This document shows, one piece after another, positions 58,732 through 64,000 of a DNA stretch of 64,000 bases. Source of the stretch: Dehalogenimonas lykanthroporepellens BL-DC-9 (lineage in GTDB: Bacteria; Chloroflexota; Dehalococcoidia; Dehalococcoidales; Dehalococcoidaceae); assembly GCA_000143165.1 (NCBI GenBank), contig CP002084.1, positions 1,054,001 to 1,118,000 on the forward strand. Reading direction: 5' to 3'. The notes below the pieces were generated by a model that searched no databases, was not told where the DNA came from, and worked only from the letters and a program-made list of their open reading frames with translations. The stretch's first letter is position 1. Each line of letters opens with the position of its first letter. The translations under genes were made by a program, and so were the position numbers.

Positions 58732-59103
58732 TCAATTGATGGAATGGGGAGGATAGTCTCCACCTTTATCATCCCCGGTTCCCTTTAACACTTCGTCAGC
58801 ATACTCCGGGTATAACTTCCGGACGCAGGCAGGGCATAAACCATGGGTGAAAGTGGCATCGGAATGGGATGAGACAAAAGTTTCCACCGTCTGCCAATAA
58901 CCTTGGTCATCTCTGACGTTTTTACAGGAAGCACAGATAGGCAACAGCCCTTCCAGAGTTTTCACCTGCGCCAACGCCTCTTCCAATTCAGCGTTTTTCT
59001 GCTGTAATTCCCGTTTGACCGAGATGAGCTCGTTCATAATACCGCTGATGGCTTCGTGCCAGTGGCTGTCGTCCCCGGATATATTCACGTTCTTATCCGA
59101 CAT
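58732..59103 (-). CDS. Short coiled-coil Cys4 protein (CASCK-type)
   Basis: 123 residues. Residues 20-52 are a heptad-rich coiled coil (ELQQKNAELEEALAQVKTLE). Then LLPICASCKNVRDDQGYWQT and HGLCPACVRKLYPEY, with C57, C60, C90 and C93 as probable zinc ligands. This module is usually the C-terminal end of response regulators or sensor proteins; here it stands alone and overlaps the cobalamin-binding gene by 11 nt. The function of the module is not established. Confidence 0.8.
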   Translation of the reverse strand: MSDKNVNISGDDSHWHEAISGIMNELISVKRELQQKNAELEEALAQVKTLEGLLPICASCKNVRDDQGYWQTVETFVSSHSDATFTHGLCPACVRKLYPEYADEVLKGTGDDKGGDYPPHSIN

Positions 59104-60217
59104 ATGTCCGAGCCTCCTCCGTCAACCGGGATAATACCACCGGGGCTTCATCCGCCTGATATGCGGCACCATCGGCGCCGAATGAAGCGGCATAGTCAGG
59201 GAATCGATTCAAGATGTAACCGCTGGCGATAACCCGAATACCGGGTGACGATTCCCGTCGCACCAGACCGATAATCTCCCACAACGCCGGGCCGGAAGAC
59301 GGCAAGGCCATTGACAAGGCCAGGGCGACAGCTTTCTGTTCACGGGCCAGATCAACCACCGCGGTAGCGGGTGTATTGGCGCCCAGGTACATGACCCGCC
59401 AACCGGCCATCTCCAGCAGGTCGGCAGTCATGCGGGAGCCGATTTCATGAAGTTCGCCGGTAACGCAGGCGACGACGACAGTACCCTTAACGGGCGAAGC
59501 GACCTGGCGACGGATACGGGGATACAACTCCGACATAATGAACTGAGTGGCGGCGCTGAAATAATGTTCATGGGCTACCGTAATCTTTCCCTGATGCCAC
59601 AGCGTGCCAACTTCATAGAGGCAGGGCTGGAAGATGTCCAAATACAGGTCACGAATGGACAGACCGTCATCAACAGCTTTGAATATCATCGCCGCCGCTG
59701 TTTCCCGGTCTCCGGCAAGAAGGGTTTTCAGGAAACGTTCAGCCAATTCGGGAAGAGGCTCCTCCGCAACGGCTCCGGCGACGGGCTTGTCTGCACCTGA
59801 CGCCAGCTCCCGACGTCCGGCCTCGATGACAGCTTCGGCTTCAATGAAGGCTTCCGACGGCAAATACCTCTTCAGAGCGGCTGACTCAGCATCCAGATTC
59901 ATCCCGATAAAGTGCGACGGCACCCCCCTGGTTGAAAGACCCTCTTTCAGCCAGGCAATCTTGTCGGTGAAAACACCGGGAACGCCGGAACGAATGGCTT
60001 CGCTCAGTTCTATCAGTTCCTGGCGGACATTGGCCGAATGCTTGCCGAAATCCATTCCGTGACGTTTGGAAACATCGCTCCTCAGGGATTGCTGGGCAGT
60101 GGTAATTTCGGTAGCCAGAAGGTCTAAATTAGAATAAATCAATTCAGCAATCTGTTTATGGTTGGGCATCAACACATCTCCCTGTGAATCATTTTGCGGG
60201 TCTTCCTTAATTACCAC
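59093..60217 (-). CDS. CarH-like cobalamin-binding sensor protein
   Basis: 374 residues (or 358 from the ATG at 60169, MPNHKQ). Residues 18-140 are a helical domain of unknown type. Residues 155-235 form the helical cap with W207 and E217-H218, an exact W-x9-EH signature. The Rossmann B12 domain follows with E255-L-H257-E-I-G260 (E-x-H-x2-G, H257 as cobalt ligand) and Ser302 at the expected 41-residue spacing. No MerR DNA-binding domain exists, so output is presumably by protein contact with its operon partners. A corrinoid methyltransferase-type role is the alternative. Confidence 0.85.
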   Translation of the reverse strand: MVIKEDPQNDSQGDVLMPNHKQIAELIYSNLDLLATEITTAQQSLRSDVSKRHGMDFGKHSANVRQELIELSEAIRSGVPGVFTDKIAWLKEGLSTRGVPSHFIGMNLDAESAALKRYLPSEAFIEAEAVIEAGRRELASGADKPVAGAVAEEPLPELAERFLKTLLAGDRETAAAMIFKAVDDGLSIRDLYLDIFQPCLYEVGTLWHQGKITVAHEHYFSAATQFIMSELYPRIRRQVASPVKGTVVVACVTGELHEIGSRMTADLLEMAGWRVMYLGANTPATAVVDLAREQKAVALALSMALPSSGPALWEIIGLVRRESSPGIRVIASGYILNRFPDYAASFGADGAAYQADEAPVVLSRLTEEARTYVG

Positions 60218-61120
60218 CTAACCAAGGCTACTGCGGTTTTTACCGGTCTTTTTGCTGAGATACATGAGTTCATCGGCCCGGCGTATGATGGTTTCTGAAT
60301 TATCGCCGGGTCGGGCCACAGTTACCCCGGCAGACACGGTGACGCTCAATTCCAGATCATTTTGCGTCAACATAGAGCAGGAGACCAGATTCCTCATCCG
60401 CTCCGCAATATCGTAAAGTTGCAGGCCGTTCACATTAGTACCCACGATAACAAACTCCTCACCGCCCCACCTGAAGAATAACGATTGCGGGCTTCGGATA
60501 TTAGCCATAATCGTCCGCGCAACCATCTTCAGAACTTCATCGCCGATATCATGACCGTAGTTATCATTAACTGCCTTGAAGTTGTCAATATCGAACAGGA
60601 TAACTCCAAAAGGCCAATCATAACGATTAAACTCATTAAACTTGGTATCAAGGGTAATATTGGCATAACGCCGATTACCAGACCGGGTCAATTCATCGAT
60701 AAGAGACAGCTTTTCCAGTTCAGAAATTTGTTCCTGAAGCTGGAAATTCTTTGAATTATCGCTGAAAGTCTCAATACCTCCGATTATTTTCCCGTCATCA
60801 TTACGTATCGGCATCACCTTTACCGTAACCGGCACGCGGTGTCCGTCCCGGTGAAGCATGAACACGGAGGCCTGATGGGGCTTACCATCGGTCATCGTAG
60901 CTGTCAGCGGACACCCGTTCAGACAAAGCCGGGTTCCCTGGTCGTCGGTGTGGACCAGGATATTATCGGCGCATCTGAAGCCGAGGACTTCATCTGCAGT
61001 CCGCCCGGTCAGCTCCGCCGCGGCCTTATTCCAATAAGAGATTCTTTTGTCGCAATCAACAAAATAGACACCTTCGCTCAGATTGTCCAACAAGTTTTTA
61101 TACAGTTCCGCCTGCATCAT
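60218..61120 (-). CDS. PAS-GGDEF diguanylate cyclase
   Basis: 300 residues. PAS domain at 1-125 (LLDNLSEGVYFVDCDKRISY and CLNGCPL with Cys near the sensing pocket), a short coiled linker (QLQEQISELEKLSLIDELT), then GGDEF with intact FRWGGEEFVIVG near residue 218. No RxxD inhibitory site precedes the motif, unlike the other GGDEF protein here. Cytoplasmic. Overlaps the kinase gene by ATGA and abuts the cobalamin gene without a gap. Confidence 0.9.
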   Translation of the reverse strand: MMQAELYKNLLDNLSEGVYFVDCDKRISYWNKAAAELTGRTADEVLGFRCADNILVHTDDQGTRLCLNGCPLTATMTDGKPHQASVFMLHRDGHRVPVTVKVMPIRNDDGKIIGGIETFSDNSKNFQLQEQISELEKLSLIDELTRSGNRRYANITLDTKFNEFNRYDWPFGVILFDIDNFKAVNDNYGHDIGDEVLKMVARTIMANIRSPQSLFFRWGGEEFVIVGTNVNGLQLYDIAERMRNLVSCSMLTQNDLELSVTVSAGVTVARPGDNSETIIRRADELMYLSKKTGKNRSSLG

Positions 61121-64000
61121 AATAAGGCATTTACCTTCTCTTCCAGCTCATGTCGTTCAAAAGGTTTACTGATATAGGGTATGTTATGGGTATTGAGGTA
61201 AGTTCTGGTAGACAGGTCTGACGTATCGCCGGTGATAAACAGCACCCGGGAAACCATTTTCGGCCAGCGGACCTTGATCTCATCGAGTAACTCTATGCCG
61301 CTCATACCTGGCATCCTGATATCCAGAATGACAATGTCATAGGTGTTATCCACCAACTTGTCCAAAGCTTCCTGGGGCCCGTAGCATTCCTGTACTTCAT
61401 GCCCCTGGCGGGTCAGGATTACTCTGATCAATGCCCCGACCGACCTTTCATCATCCACCACCAGTATTTTGGCGCTTCGTATAGCCTTTACCGGTTGAGT
61501 CTCCTGATTCTCAACCGCAGATACTGTCTCCACCGGGGTCATCGGTAATTCAACGATAAATGTGGTGCCTTTTCCCACAACAGTCTTTACCGAAATACTG
61601 CCACCGTGTTCCTTAATAATACCCATGGACAAGGCCAGCCCCAGACCGGTGCCTTCACCCGGGTCTTTGGTGGTAAAGAACGGCTGAAACAGTTTGCTTT
61701 TAACCTCATCAGACATGCCAGGCCCGTCATCAGTAATCAGAACGCGAATATGACCATCAGATTTTTCCGTTTTGACAACCAGGACACCCTTATCATGCGC
61801 TTTCTTCATCGCGTATTCAGCATTGACAATGATGTTCAGAAACACCTGTTGCAACTGGCCGGCGTCAGCGACGACTTCGGTAATATCCCGGGCGTAGTCC
61901 CTGACAATGGAGATATTGGAGGTTTCCAGTACATACCGGCGCATCTCAATGGTGTTTTCCAGCACATCTATTATGTTGACTGCCGATTTCACCGGCTTCG
62001 ACTGACGGGCAAAAGTCAGCATCCGGCGCACTATGTCCTTGACCCGCTGACTGCCTTCATTGATGATATGCAGGTCTTCCTTCATGTCATCGGGAACATC
62101 GGGCCGGGTCATCAGTAGTTCAGAGAAGCCTATAACACCGGTCAGCGGGTTGTTGATTTCGTGGGCGATACCGGCGGCCATTTCACCGACCGCCGCCAGG
62201 CGGCTGGACATTTCGGCTTTTTCACGAAGCAGGCGTTCATTTTCCTCCGCCCGTTTCCGGCCGGAAACATCCTTGATGATATGTACCGACCCCACCATGT
62301 TACCGTCGACGTCCATTATCGGCGAAGCGGTAGCCTCCACCCACAAACCCAGCTTTTCATCGAAATACTCGCTGGTTTCCACCTGTCGGGTGGTCAGAGC
62401 GCGGGCATAGGGACAATCCGGGTGCGGCCCTTTAAGCCCGTGAATCACCTCATAGCATCGCTTACCCAGCAGTTCACCGGGTTTTCGGCCCAGCACCCGG
62501 GCGAAAGCCTGGTTAACCCTGGTTATTCTGTGCCCGGTATCGACCAGAGCGACCATATCGGTGATGGAATCGAAGGTGGCCAGCCATTCGGCGGCCGAGC
62601 GCAAAGCCTCTTCTTCCGCCTGTTTACGCTCGGTGATGTCTATCATGATACCGCGAAGCTTAACCGGCTGACAGCCGGCTTGCTCCACGCTGACAATGTT
62701 CCTCAGCCAGACAGATTTGCCGTCTTTTTTCAGAAACCGATATTCCAGCGAGTGGTCCCGACCGGCCCGGGCGGCGGTAAGACAATATTTCGGCGCCCAG
62801 TCCCGGTCTTCCGGATGGATATGATCCGCCCAGAACTGTAAATCGGTGAACTCCTCCGGACGGTAGCCCAGAATCCGTCCGACCTGTGACGCCAAATAGG
62901 TCCACCTGTCCTGTTCGATATCATATTCCCAGGAGATGGACTCGGTGTTTTCCGCCAGTTGACGGTATTTTTCTTTCGACTCCGCCAGCGCTCGTTCCCG
63001 GTTAATCTGCTCTGTAATCACTTCAGTATAAACGATGATACCACCGACAGAGCCATCCTTTTCGAACCAGGGACGACATTCCCAGCGAGTCCACTCGACG
63101 GTGCCGTCCTCTCGGACGAATTCGTCACGGTCGGCACGGCAGATTTCACCGGCCAGGGCTCGTTGATGTACATCACGCCATTTTTGTGGCAGGTCAGGAA
63201 AGACATCATAATGGTGCCGGCCGATGATATTCCGAGGACCTAAATTGTATTCATCAAGGTATCGCTGGCTGACGTAGATGTAGTTCAGATTACGGTCATG
63301 AACCGCGATACCGGCCTGGTCGTGTTCAATGATATAACGCATCAAATTCAGGGTGTGGTTCAATTCACGGCGCGCGCTTACAGCTTCGGTCTCATCCCGA
63401 ACCGTGGAAACCATTACTCCCTGGTCCGGTATCGGGATATTGGCCGCGGCGACGACGCGCTTTCCCCCGTCTTTCCGGGTTATCTCAATGTCTTCCCAGT
63501 GCATCCGGGCTGGATCGCTACTTTCGATATCGGCCATAATACGGGACACGATAGCCTCGCGGTACCCGGCGTCAGGATAAACCTTCTCAAAAAAGGTGGC
63601 TATATCGGTGATTTCTTCCTTCGGCCAGCCGTATATCTCTTCGAAACGCGAATTCATGTAGGTAACCTGGCCGTCACCTGTATTGTTGATGGCCAGACCG
63701 ATGGGCAACTGGTCGATTATGGTCTGAATGAAAAGATTGCGATTTTTCAGTTCATCAGCTTGCAGTTTTAATTCTTCCTCGGCTTTTTTACGCTTGGTAA
63801 TATCCCTCGCCAGCGTCAACACAGCGGGTTTACCCTGCAATTCAAACCTGTGGATAACGACTTCAACAGGAATCTCGTGTCCATCCTTGTGTCGAAAAGC
63901 GGATTCCCGGGTGACTTTCTTTACAGCTTCCAGTATTTTCATGATATCCGGAGGAGTTACTCCGAATTTTTCCCAAACCACAATGTCCCTTGGGCCAAGT
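61117..64000 (-). CDS. Multi-PAS hybrid histidine kinase with receiver domain (5' end outside window)
   Basis: At least 960 residues; the frame is open to the window edge (GPRDIVVWEKFGV), so the start is missing. At least four PAS/PAC units are seen, with ends such as LTLARDITKRKKAEEE and RGIMIDITERKQAEEE. The H-box is LAAVGEMAAGIAHEINNPLT, the HATPase boxes are NIIVNAEYAM, DDGPGM and GEGTGLGLALSMGI, and the C-terminal receiver has VVDDERS and phospho-Asp in IVILDIRMPGMSG. No membrane helix is visible in this part. Heads the signalling operon. Confidence 0.93.
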   Translation of the reverse strand, partial: LGPRDIVVWEKFGVTPPDIMKILEAVKKVTRESAFRHKDGHEIPVEVVIHRFELQGKPAVLTLARDITKRKKAEEELKLQADELKNRNLFIQTIIDQLPIGLAINNTGDGQVTYMNSRFEEIYGWPKEEITDIATFFEKVYPDAGYREAIVSRIMADIESSDPARMHWEDIEITRKDGGKRVVAAANIPIPDQGVMVSTVRDETEAVSARRELNHTLNLMRYIIEHDQAGIAVHDRNLNYIYVSQRYLDEYNLGPRNIIGRHHYDVFPDLPQKWRDVHQRALAGEICRADRDEFVREDGTVEWTRWECRPWFEKDGSVGGIIVYTEVITEQINRERALAESKEKYRQLAENTESISWEYDIEQDRWTYLASQVGRILGYRPEEFTDLQFWADHIHPEDRDWAPKYCLTAARAGRDHSLEYRFLKKDGKSVWLRNIVSVEQAGCQPVKLRGIMIDITERKQAEEEALRSAAEWLATFDSITDMVALVDTGHRITRVNQAFARVLGRKPGELLGKRCYEVIHGLKGPHPDCPYARALTTRQVETSEYFDEKLGLWVEATASPIMDVDGNMVGSVHIIKDVSGRKRAEENERLLREKAEMSSRLAAVGEMAAGIAHEINNPLTGVIGFSELLMTRPDVPDDMKEDLHIINEGSQRVKDIVRRMLTFARQSKPVKSAVNIIDVLENTIEMRRYVLETSNISIVRDYARDITEVVADAGQLQQVFLNIIVNAEYAMKKAHDKGVLVVKTEKSDGHIRVLITDDGPGMSDEVKSKLFQPFFTTKDPGEGTGLGLALSMGIIKEHGGSISVKTVVGKGTTFIVELPMTPVETVSAVENQETQPVKAIRSAKILVVDDERSVGALIRVILTRQGHEVQECYGPQEALDKLVDNTYDIVILDIRMPGMSGIELLDEIKVRWPKMVSRVLFITGDTSDLSTRTYLNTHNIPYISKPFERHELEEKVNALL

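Follow-up and report, generated by a model that had tools for sequence, protein, structure and literature searches.

What would a protein with an adenosylcobalamin (AdoCbl) light-sensing signature sense in a strict anaerobe, and to what would it report? The gene that raises this question belongs to Dehalogenimonas lykanthroporepellens BL-DC-9, a groundwater bacterium that respires chlorinated compounds and a host that agrees with the strict anaerobe supposed in a preliminary description of the locus, in which the product was taken for a CarH/LitR-type photosensory B12 protein devoid of a DNA-binding domain. The window analyzed here is the whole stretch of 64,000 nucleotides (contig CP002084.1, positions 1,054,001 to 1,118,000). 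We add to that description that the minus strand is the coding strand of the B12 sensor gene, and residues are numbered throughout on its 374-aa reading frame. The features of the locus are the following:

61117..64000, minus strand: multi-PAS hybrid histidine kinase gene, running past the window (1149 aa in L056; ORF list, Pfam)
60218..61120, minus strand: PAS-GGDEF protein gene, with GGEEF, its stop abutting the B12 ORF (ORF list, Pfam)
59093..60217, minus strand: B12 sensor gene, 374-aa ORF (ORF list, translation, Pfam)
60029..60040, minus strand: degenerate bilin motif HSAN in place of CxxD, residues 60-63 (alignment)
59798..60160, minus strand: putative photoglobin (phycobiliprotein-fold) domain, residues about 20-140 (profile and fold matches)
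59525..59746, minus strand: B12-binding_2, helical half, residues 158-231 (Pfam, E 2.6e-16)
59564..59608, minus strand: GxxW and W-x9-EH, residues 204-218 (motif comparison)
59156..59482, minus strand: B12-binding, Rossmann half, residues 246-354 (Pfam, E 4.1e-14)
59447..59458, minus strand: GxxH, residues 254-257, with H257 as the predicted lower cobalt ligand
59369..59383, minus strand: GxxxP, residues 279-283 (motif comparison)
58732..59103, minus strand: gene of the proposed partner, 123 aa, which combines a coil with CxxC...CPxC (ORF list)

The 374-aa frame opens at a GTG directly after the stop of the upstream gene. Because the ATG at 60169 (codon 17) is preceded by GGGAG at about 10 bases on its 5' side, and because the B12 proteins of relatives begin near this same position, this ATG is probably the real start, which would give a 358-aa protein.

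Light-responsive B12 domains share a published signature made of GxxW, EH, GxxH and GxxxP (PMC11796333), and all four elements were identified in the B12 protein: G204-T-L-W207, W207-x9-E217-H218, G254-E-L-H257 (which can also be read as E255-x-H257-x2-G260) and G279-A-N-T-P283. Ser302 is located 41 residues past G260, and the adenosyl-contacting residues are invariant across the protein's own clade. The AdoCbl photosensory signature reported in the preliminary description was thus found with every one of its motifs, and W-x9-EH is distributed beyond chance in our comparison set of 59 proteins: the 16 corrinoid-carrier-like proteins, which come from the same order, all lack it, and the 43 others all have it. 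Position 208, beside the signature Trp, is a His that matches His132 of TtCarH; this position is variable in photocobilins and CtMerR, and the nearest relatives have Gln there. The genome encodes two adenosyltransferases of the CobA/BtuR family. It is very likely that the protein binds AdoCbl, and a light response in vitro is likely too. The earlier statement that a DNA-binding domain is missing also held, as no MerR or other HTH domain scored above the Pfam cut-off.

The CarH/LitR family did not prove to be the nearest kin, since photocobilins are the closest solved structures both by sequence and by fold. In PDB sequence searches the photocobilins 8j2w, 8j2x and 8j2y, together with CtMerR, took the top ranks; CarH came ahead of the carriers in the single-sequence search, and some carriers overtook CarH in the profile search. 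Only the B12 module is confident in the full-length AlphaFold model. Its best alignment was with 8j2y (Z 23.4 over 213 residues at 2.8 A), followed by 8j2w (Z 22.7), the carriers (about 20-21) and CarH (about 18), and the gaps between these Z values are modest. The NCBIfam CarH model scored 80 bits, short of its 400-bit cut-off. The protein shares with CarH/LitR the B12 signature, including the His beside the signature Trp, but it has a photoglobin-like domain in place of MerR and its gene stands beside kinase and GGDEF genes instead of carotenoid genes. In a maximum-likelihood tree it falls in a four-member clade (support 100/100) nested in an 11-member clade of globin-B12 proteins (99/95), outside the carriers, 14 of which (out of 16) form a separate clade while the remaining two attach elsewhere. 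Its closest relatives are therefore not methyl carriers, the outcome that the preliminary description had named as the first half of its refuting condition. That it is itself a corrinoid methyl carrier of the MtbC, MttC or MtaC type, with which it shares the two-part B12-binding fold with its His ligand and weak matches to carrier models, is extremely improbable, as all NCBIfam carrier families remained far below their cut-offs, the tree sets it apart, carriers have no globin domain and none of the 16 has W-x9-EH, and no methyltransferase gene was found in the 17-kb region analyzed.

The N-terminal domain alone gave no sequence match in Pfam or PDB and was revealed only by profiles that included relatives or by fold search. 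With a profile of five full-length relatives, the globin at the C-terminus of photocobilins was matched (domain i-E 0.013 for 8j2y and 0.16 for 8j2w), and allophycocyanin gave a weak match. Five of seven N-termini of sister proteins matched the Pfam Phycobilisome family (best value 6.5e-10), sister N-termini matched allophycocyanins at 3.9e-7, and the N-terminus of the own clade aligned with the sister N-termini in a profile comparison with probability 98.4 and E 9.9e-15. Direct profile comparison with the C-terminal photoglobin-like domains of other Chloroflexota was weak for the clade N-terminus (probability 9.6) and reached a probability of 86 for the sister set. In a fold search with a single-sequence model of residues 17-141, of low confidence (pLDDT 59.7), 8j2w took the top rank, followed mostly by phycobiliproteins, at E-values no lower than 0.02. 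By profile and by predicted fold, the N-terminal 140 residues, which had been described correctly as not MerR-like, are best read as a degenerate photoglobin (phycobiliprotein-fold) domain, similar in fold to phycobiliproteins and photoglobins (PF00502) but missing their bilin attachment or binding motif.

From the identity of this domain it follows that the B12 protein would be a member of the photocobilin lineage whose globin precedes its B12 domain. Such an architecture is already known, as photocobilins with a C-terminal AdoCbl domain have been described (PMC10979010), and its domain order is opposite to that of the solved photocobilins. The closest known proteins are the photocobilins SasPcob and AbDPcob (PDB 8J2W, 8J2X, 8J2Y; PMC10979010), and in particular the group with the C-terminal AdoCbl domain. 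Like them, our protein joins a full-signature B12 domain to a photoglobin domain, and photocobilins too are stand-alone proteins or lie near signalling enzymes. Besides the reversed domain order, it differs from them in the loss of the bilin Asp and the CxxD motif, in the His that follows the signature Trp and in the coil-CxxC partner gene.

The bilin site deserves separate consideration. Biliverdin is held by Asp270 in SasPcob; AbPcob has a His at this position and binds biliverdin weakly; AbDPcob also lacks the bilin Asp, yet it is still called a photocobilin; and photoglobins carry CXQD at the bilin attachment site (PMC10151467). The five members of the clade all carry other residues in place of the Asp (HSAN, with N63, in the present protein, and YIEY, YREY, YREY and HSDY in the others), and all ten sister proteins keep it, nine from the initial set and one found later. 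As the clade is a single lineage, the five replacements count as one loss and not as five. Because AbDPcob counts as a photocobilin without the Asp, we file the protein in the photocobilin lineage with no claim of bilin binding. Searches for the heme oxygenase family PF01126, in which the positive controls matched, found none in the genome and none in eight relatives, including some that keep the bilin Asp, such as L004, L062 and L064 of the same order. Taken from the alignments, the bilin site appears to have decayed in this clade while the adenosyl pocket was kept.

The gene occupies an operon position between prs and hisA, and the same interval in congeners bears on whether it is native. 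In one of them (G001) the interval contains kinase and GGDEF but neither the B12 nor the CxxC gene; in another (G006) it holds kinase, GGDEF and a deletion scar (L081 10640-10800) in which the GTG start of the B12 gene is joined to the CxxC gene from codon 71 onward, the last third of that gene; in a third (G005) prs adjoins hisA. Since the scar is a fossil of the B12-CxxC pair, and since kinase and GGDEF genes are held at the same place in both G001 and G006, the pair appears to have been present in the ancestor of the genus or of some part of it, and to have been lost repeatedly, or to be in the process of loss. The kinase and GGDEF proteins do not need the B12 protein, because congeners keep both without its gene. 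Scans of viral contigs gave no relatives of the B12 protein. The RefSeq record of BL-DC-9 was suppressed by NCBI following a contamination warning and the gene was not found in any of seven Dehalogenimonas congeners, which could point to a contaminant or to a decaying gene without function in this strain; with the kinase and GGDEF genes at the prs-hisA site of G001 and G006, remnants of the pair in the G006 scar and an intact ORF that carries all the signature residues, we regard this as very unlikely.

The four genes of the run (hybrid histidine kinase, PAS-GGDEF, B12 protein and coil-CxxC, in this order) overlap or abut at their ends: the kinase and GGDEF genes overlap by 4 bases, and the start of the coil-CxxC gene overlaps the stop of the B12 gene by 11 bases. 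A coil-CxxC gene is located directly downstream of the B12 gene in five of five clade members, which, being one lineage, amount to one event as regards partner type. The directly downstream gene in sister lineages is mostly a coil-GGDEF (L005, L022, L062, L088) or a coil-kinase gene (L004, L066); in Ilyobacter it encodes a PAS-coil-GGDEF protein, and in Skermanella (L067) it is neither coil-GGDEF nor coil-kinase. The coil of the 123-aa protein is NELISVKRELQQKNAEL, and a coil pattern matched 9 of 354 distinct ORFs, all of them directly downstream of a B12 gene, the pattern having been derived from the same sequences that it matched. Given a similar coil across partners directly downstream of B12 genes, the coil may be a docking element common to the partner genes. 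Two further proteins of the genome with a CxxC module carry different coils. Operon and partner-gene association support the probable coupling to protein partners proposed earlier, and we infer the contact itself from them.

The CxxC...CPxC module looks like a general output module; it found no named match in Pfam, NCBIfam or PDB. The module (LLPICANCKQIRDDKGYW...) is also C-terminal in a membrane protein (L027 1459-2166, G000:C1 at about 980 kb) and in a response regulator (L028 1129-1746, G000:C1 at about 740 kb), both encoded outside the window. In the PAS-GGDEF protein (60218-61120) the GGEEF is intact and the inhibitory-site motif RxxD was not seen before it, and the genome gave no PilZ match that would point to a c-di-GMP receptor. 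On a plasmid of the anaerobe Ilyobacter polytropus (L068 4524-6567) a full-signature B12 sensor lies beside the PAS-coil-GGDEF gene.

Regulation of enzyme domains has been reported for photocobilins, as has action through protein contacts. On balance we consider it fairly probable that the present protein comes from the photocobilin lineage, has lost the bilin motif and serves as an AdoCbl-binding signalling protein that acts through its neighbors. AdoCbl would be bound base-off/His-on, with H257 below and the adenosyl group in a pocket formed by W207, E217, H218 and P283, and would favor a head-to-tail dimer. Loss of the adenosyl group, through light or through scarcity of AdoCbl, would alter this assembly, and protein contact would relay the change to the coil-CxxC protein, whose translation is coupled, and possibly also to the PAS-GGDEF protein and the hybrid kinase of the operon. 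As the second, bilin-based light pocket has decayed, the protein may gauge coenzyme B12, or light via B12 alone.

A working green-light photoreceptor, with AdoCbl photolysis as its natural cue and no bilin antenna, would make use of the complete signature and the intact adenosyl pocket, and His208 corresponds to the TtCarH His132 that serves as upper ligand in the light state. Chemistry would allow an anaerobe to respond to light, since the ligand switch of CarH also runs without oxygen. However, the host lives in the subsurface, the bilin motif is gone, the nearest relatives have Gln at position 208, and neither photolyase (nine genomes searched, positive controls matched) nor heme oxygenase was found. 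In the library of papers searched, none mentions both Dehalogenimonas and a photoreceptor. We hold this reading as possible though doubtful, and place the likelihood of light as the natural cue somewhat below even.

Slightly favored over light is AdoCbl supply, sensed through a switch from the apo to the AdoCbl-bound form, a reading that is plausible but still tentative. The host is a corrinoid auxotroph with corrinoid-dependent dehalogenases, its protein has lost the antenna and retained the pocket, and no further light genes of the kinds searched were found. On the other hand, congeners share the need for corrinoids and do without the gene, light sensing is the main role known for B12 domains of this type, and neither a corrinoid gene nor a riboswitch was found in the 17-kb region; no Rfam family of any kind was detected in the operon region or in the corresponding regions of three relatives. 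A still more specific reading of AdoCbl supply as the cue supposes that, in organohalide respirers that are strict anaerobes and depend on corrinoids, a photoreceptor lineage came to gauge coenzyme B12 independently of light, the bilin antenna decaying, the AdoCbl pocket being kept and the output moving from GGDEF or kinase partners to the small coil-CxxC protein; we consider this rather unlikely.

The photocobilins characterized so far are two-color light sensors. A clade with an AdoCbl pocket but no bilin motif, in bacteria of the dark subsurface that rely on scavenged corrinoids, makes a natural test case for whether such proteins sense light or coenzyme supply. It also provides a concrete candidate for cobamide sensing in organohalide respirers, together with a candidate docking coil common to the partner genes.
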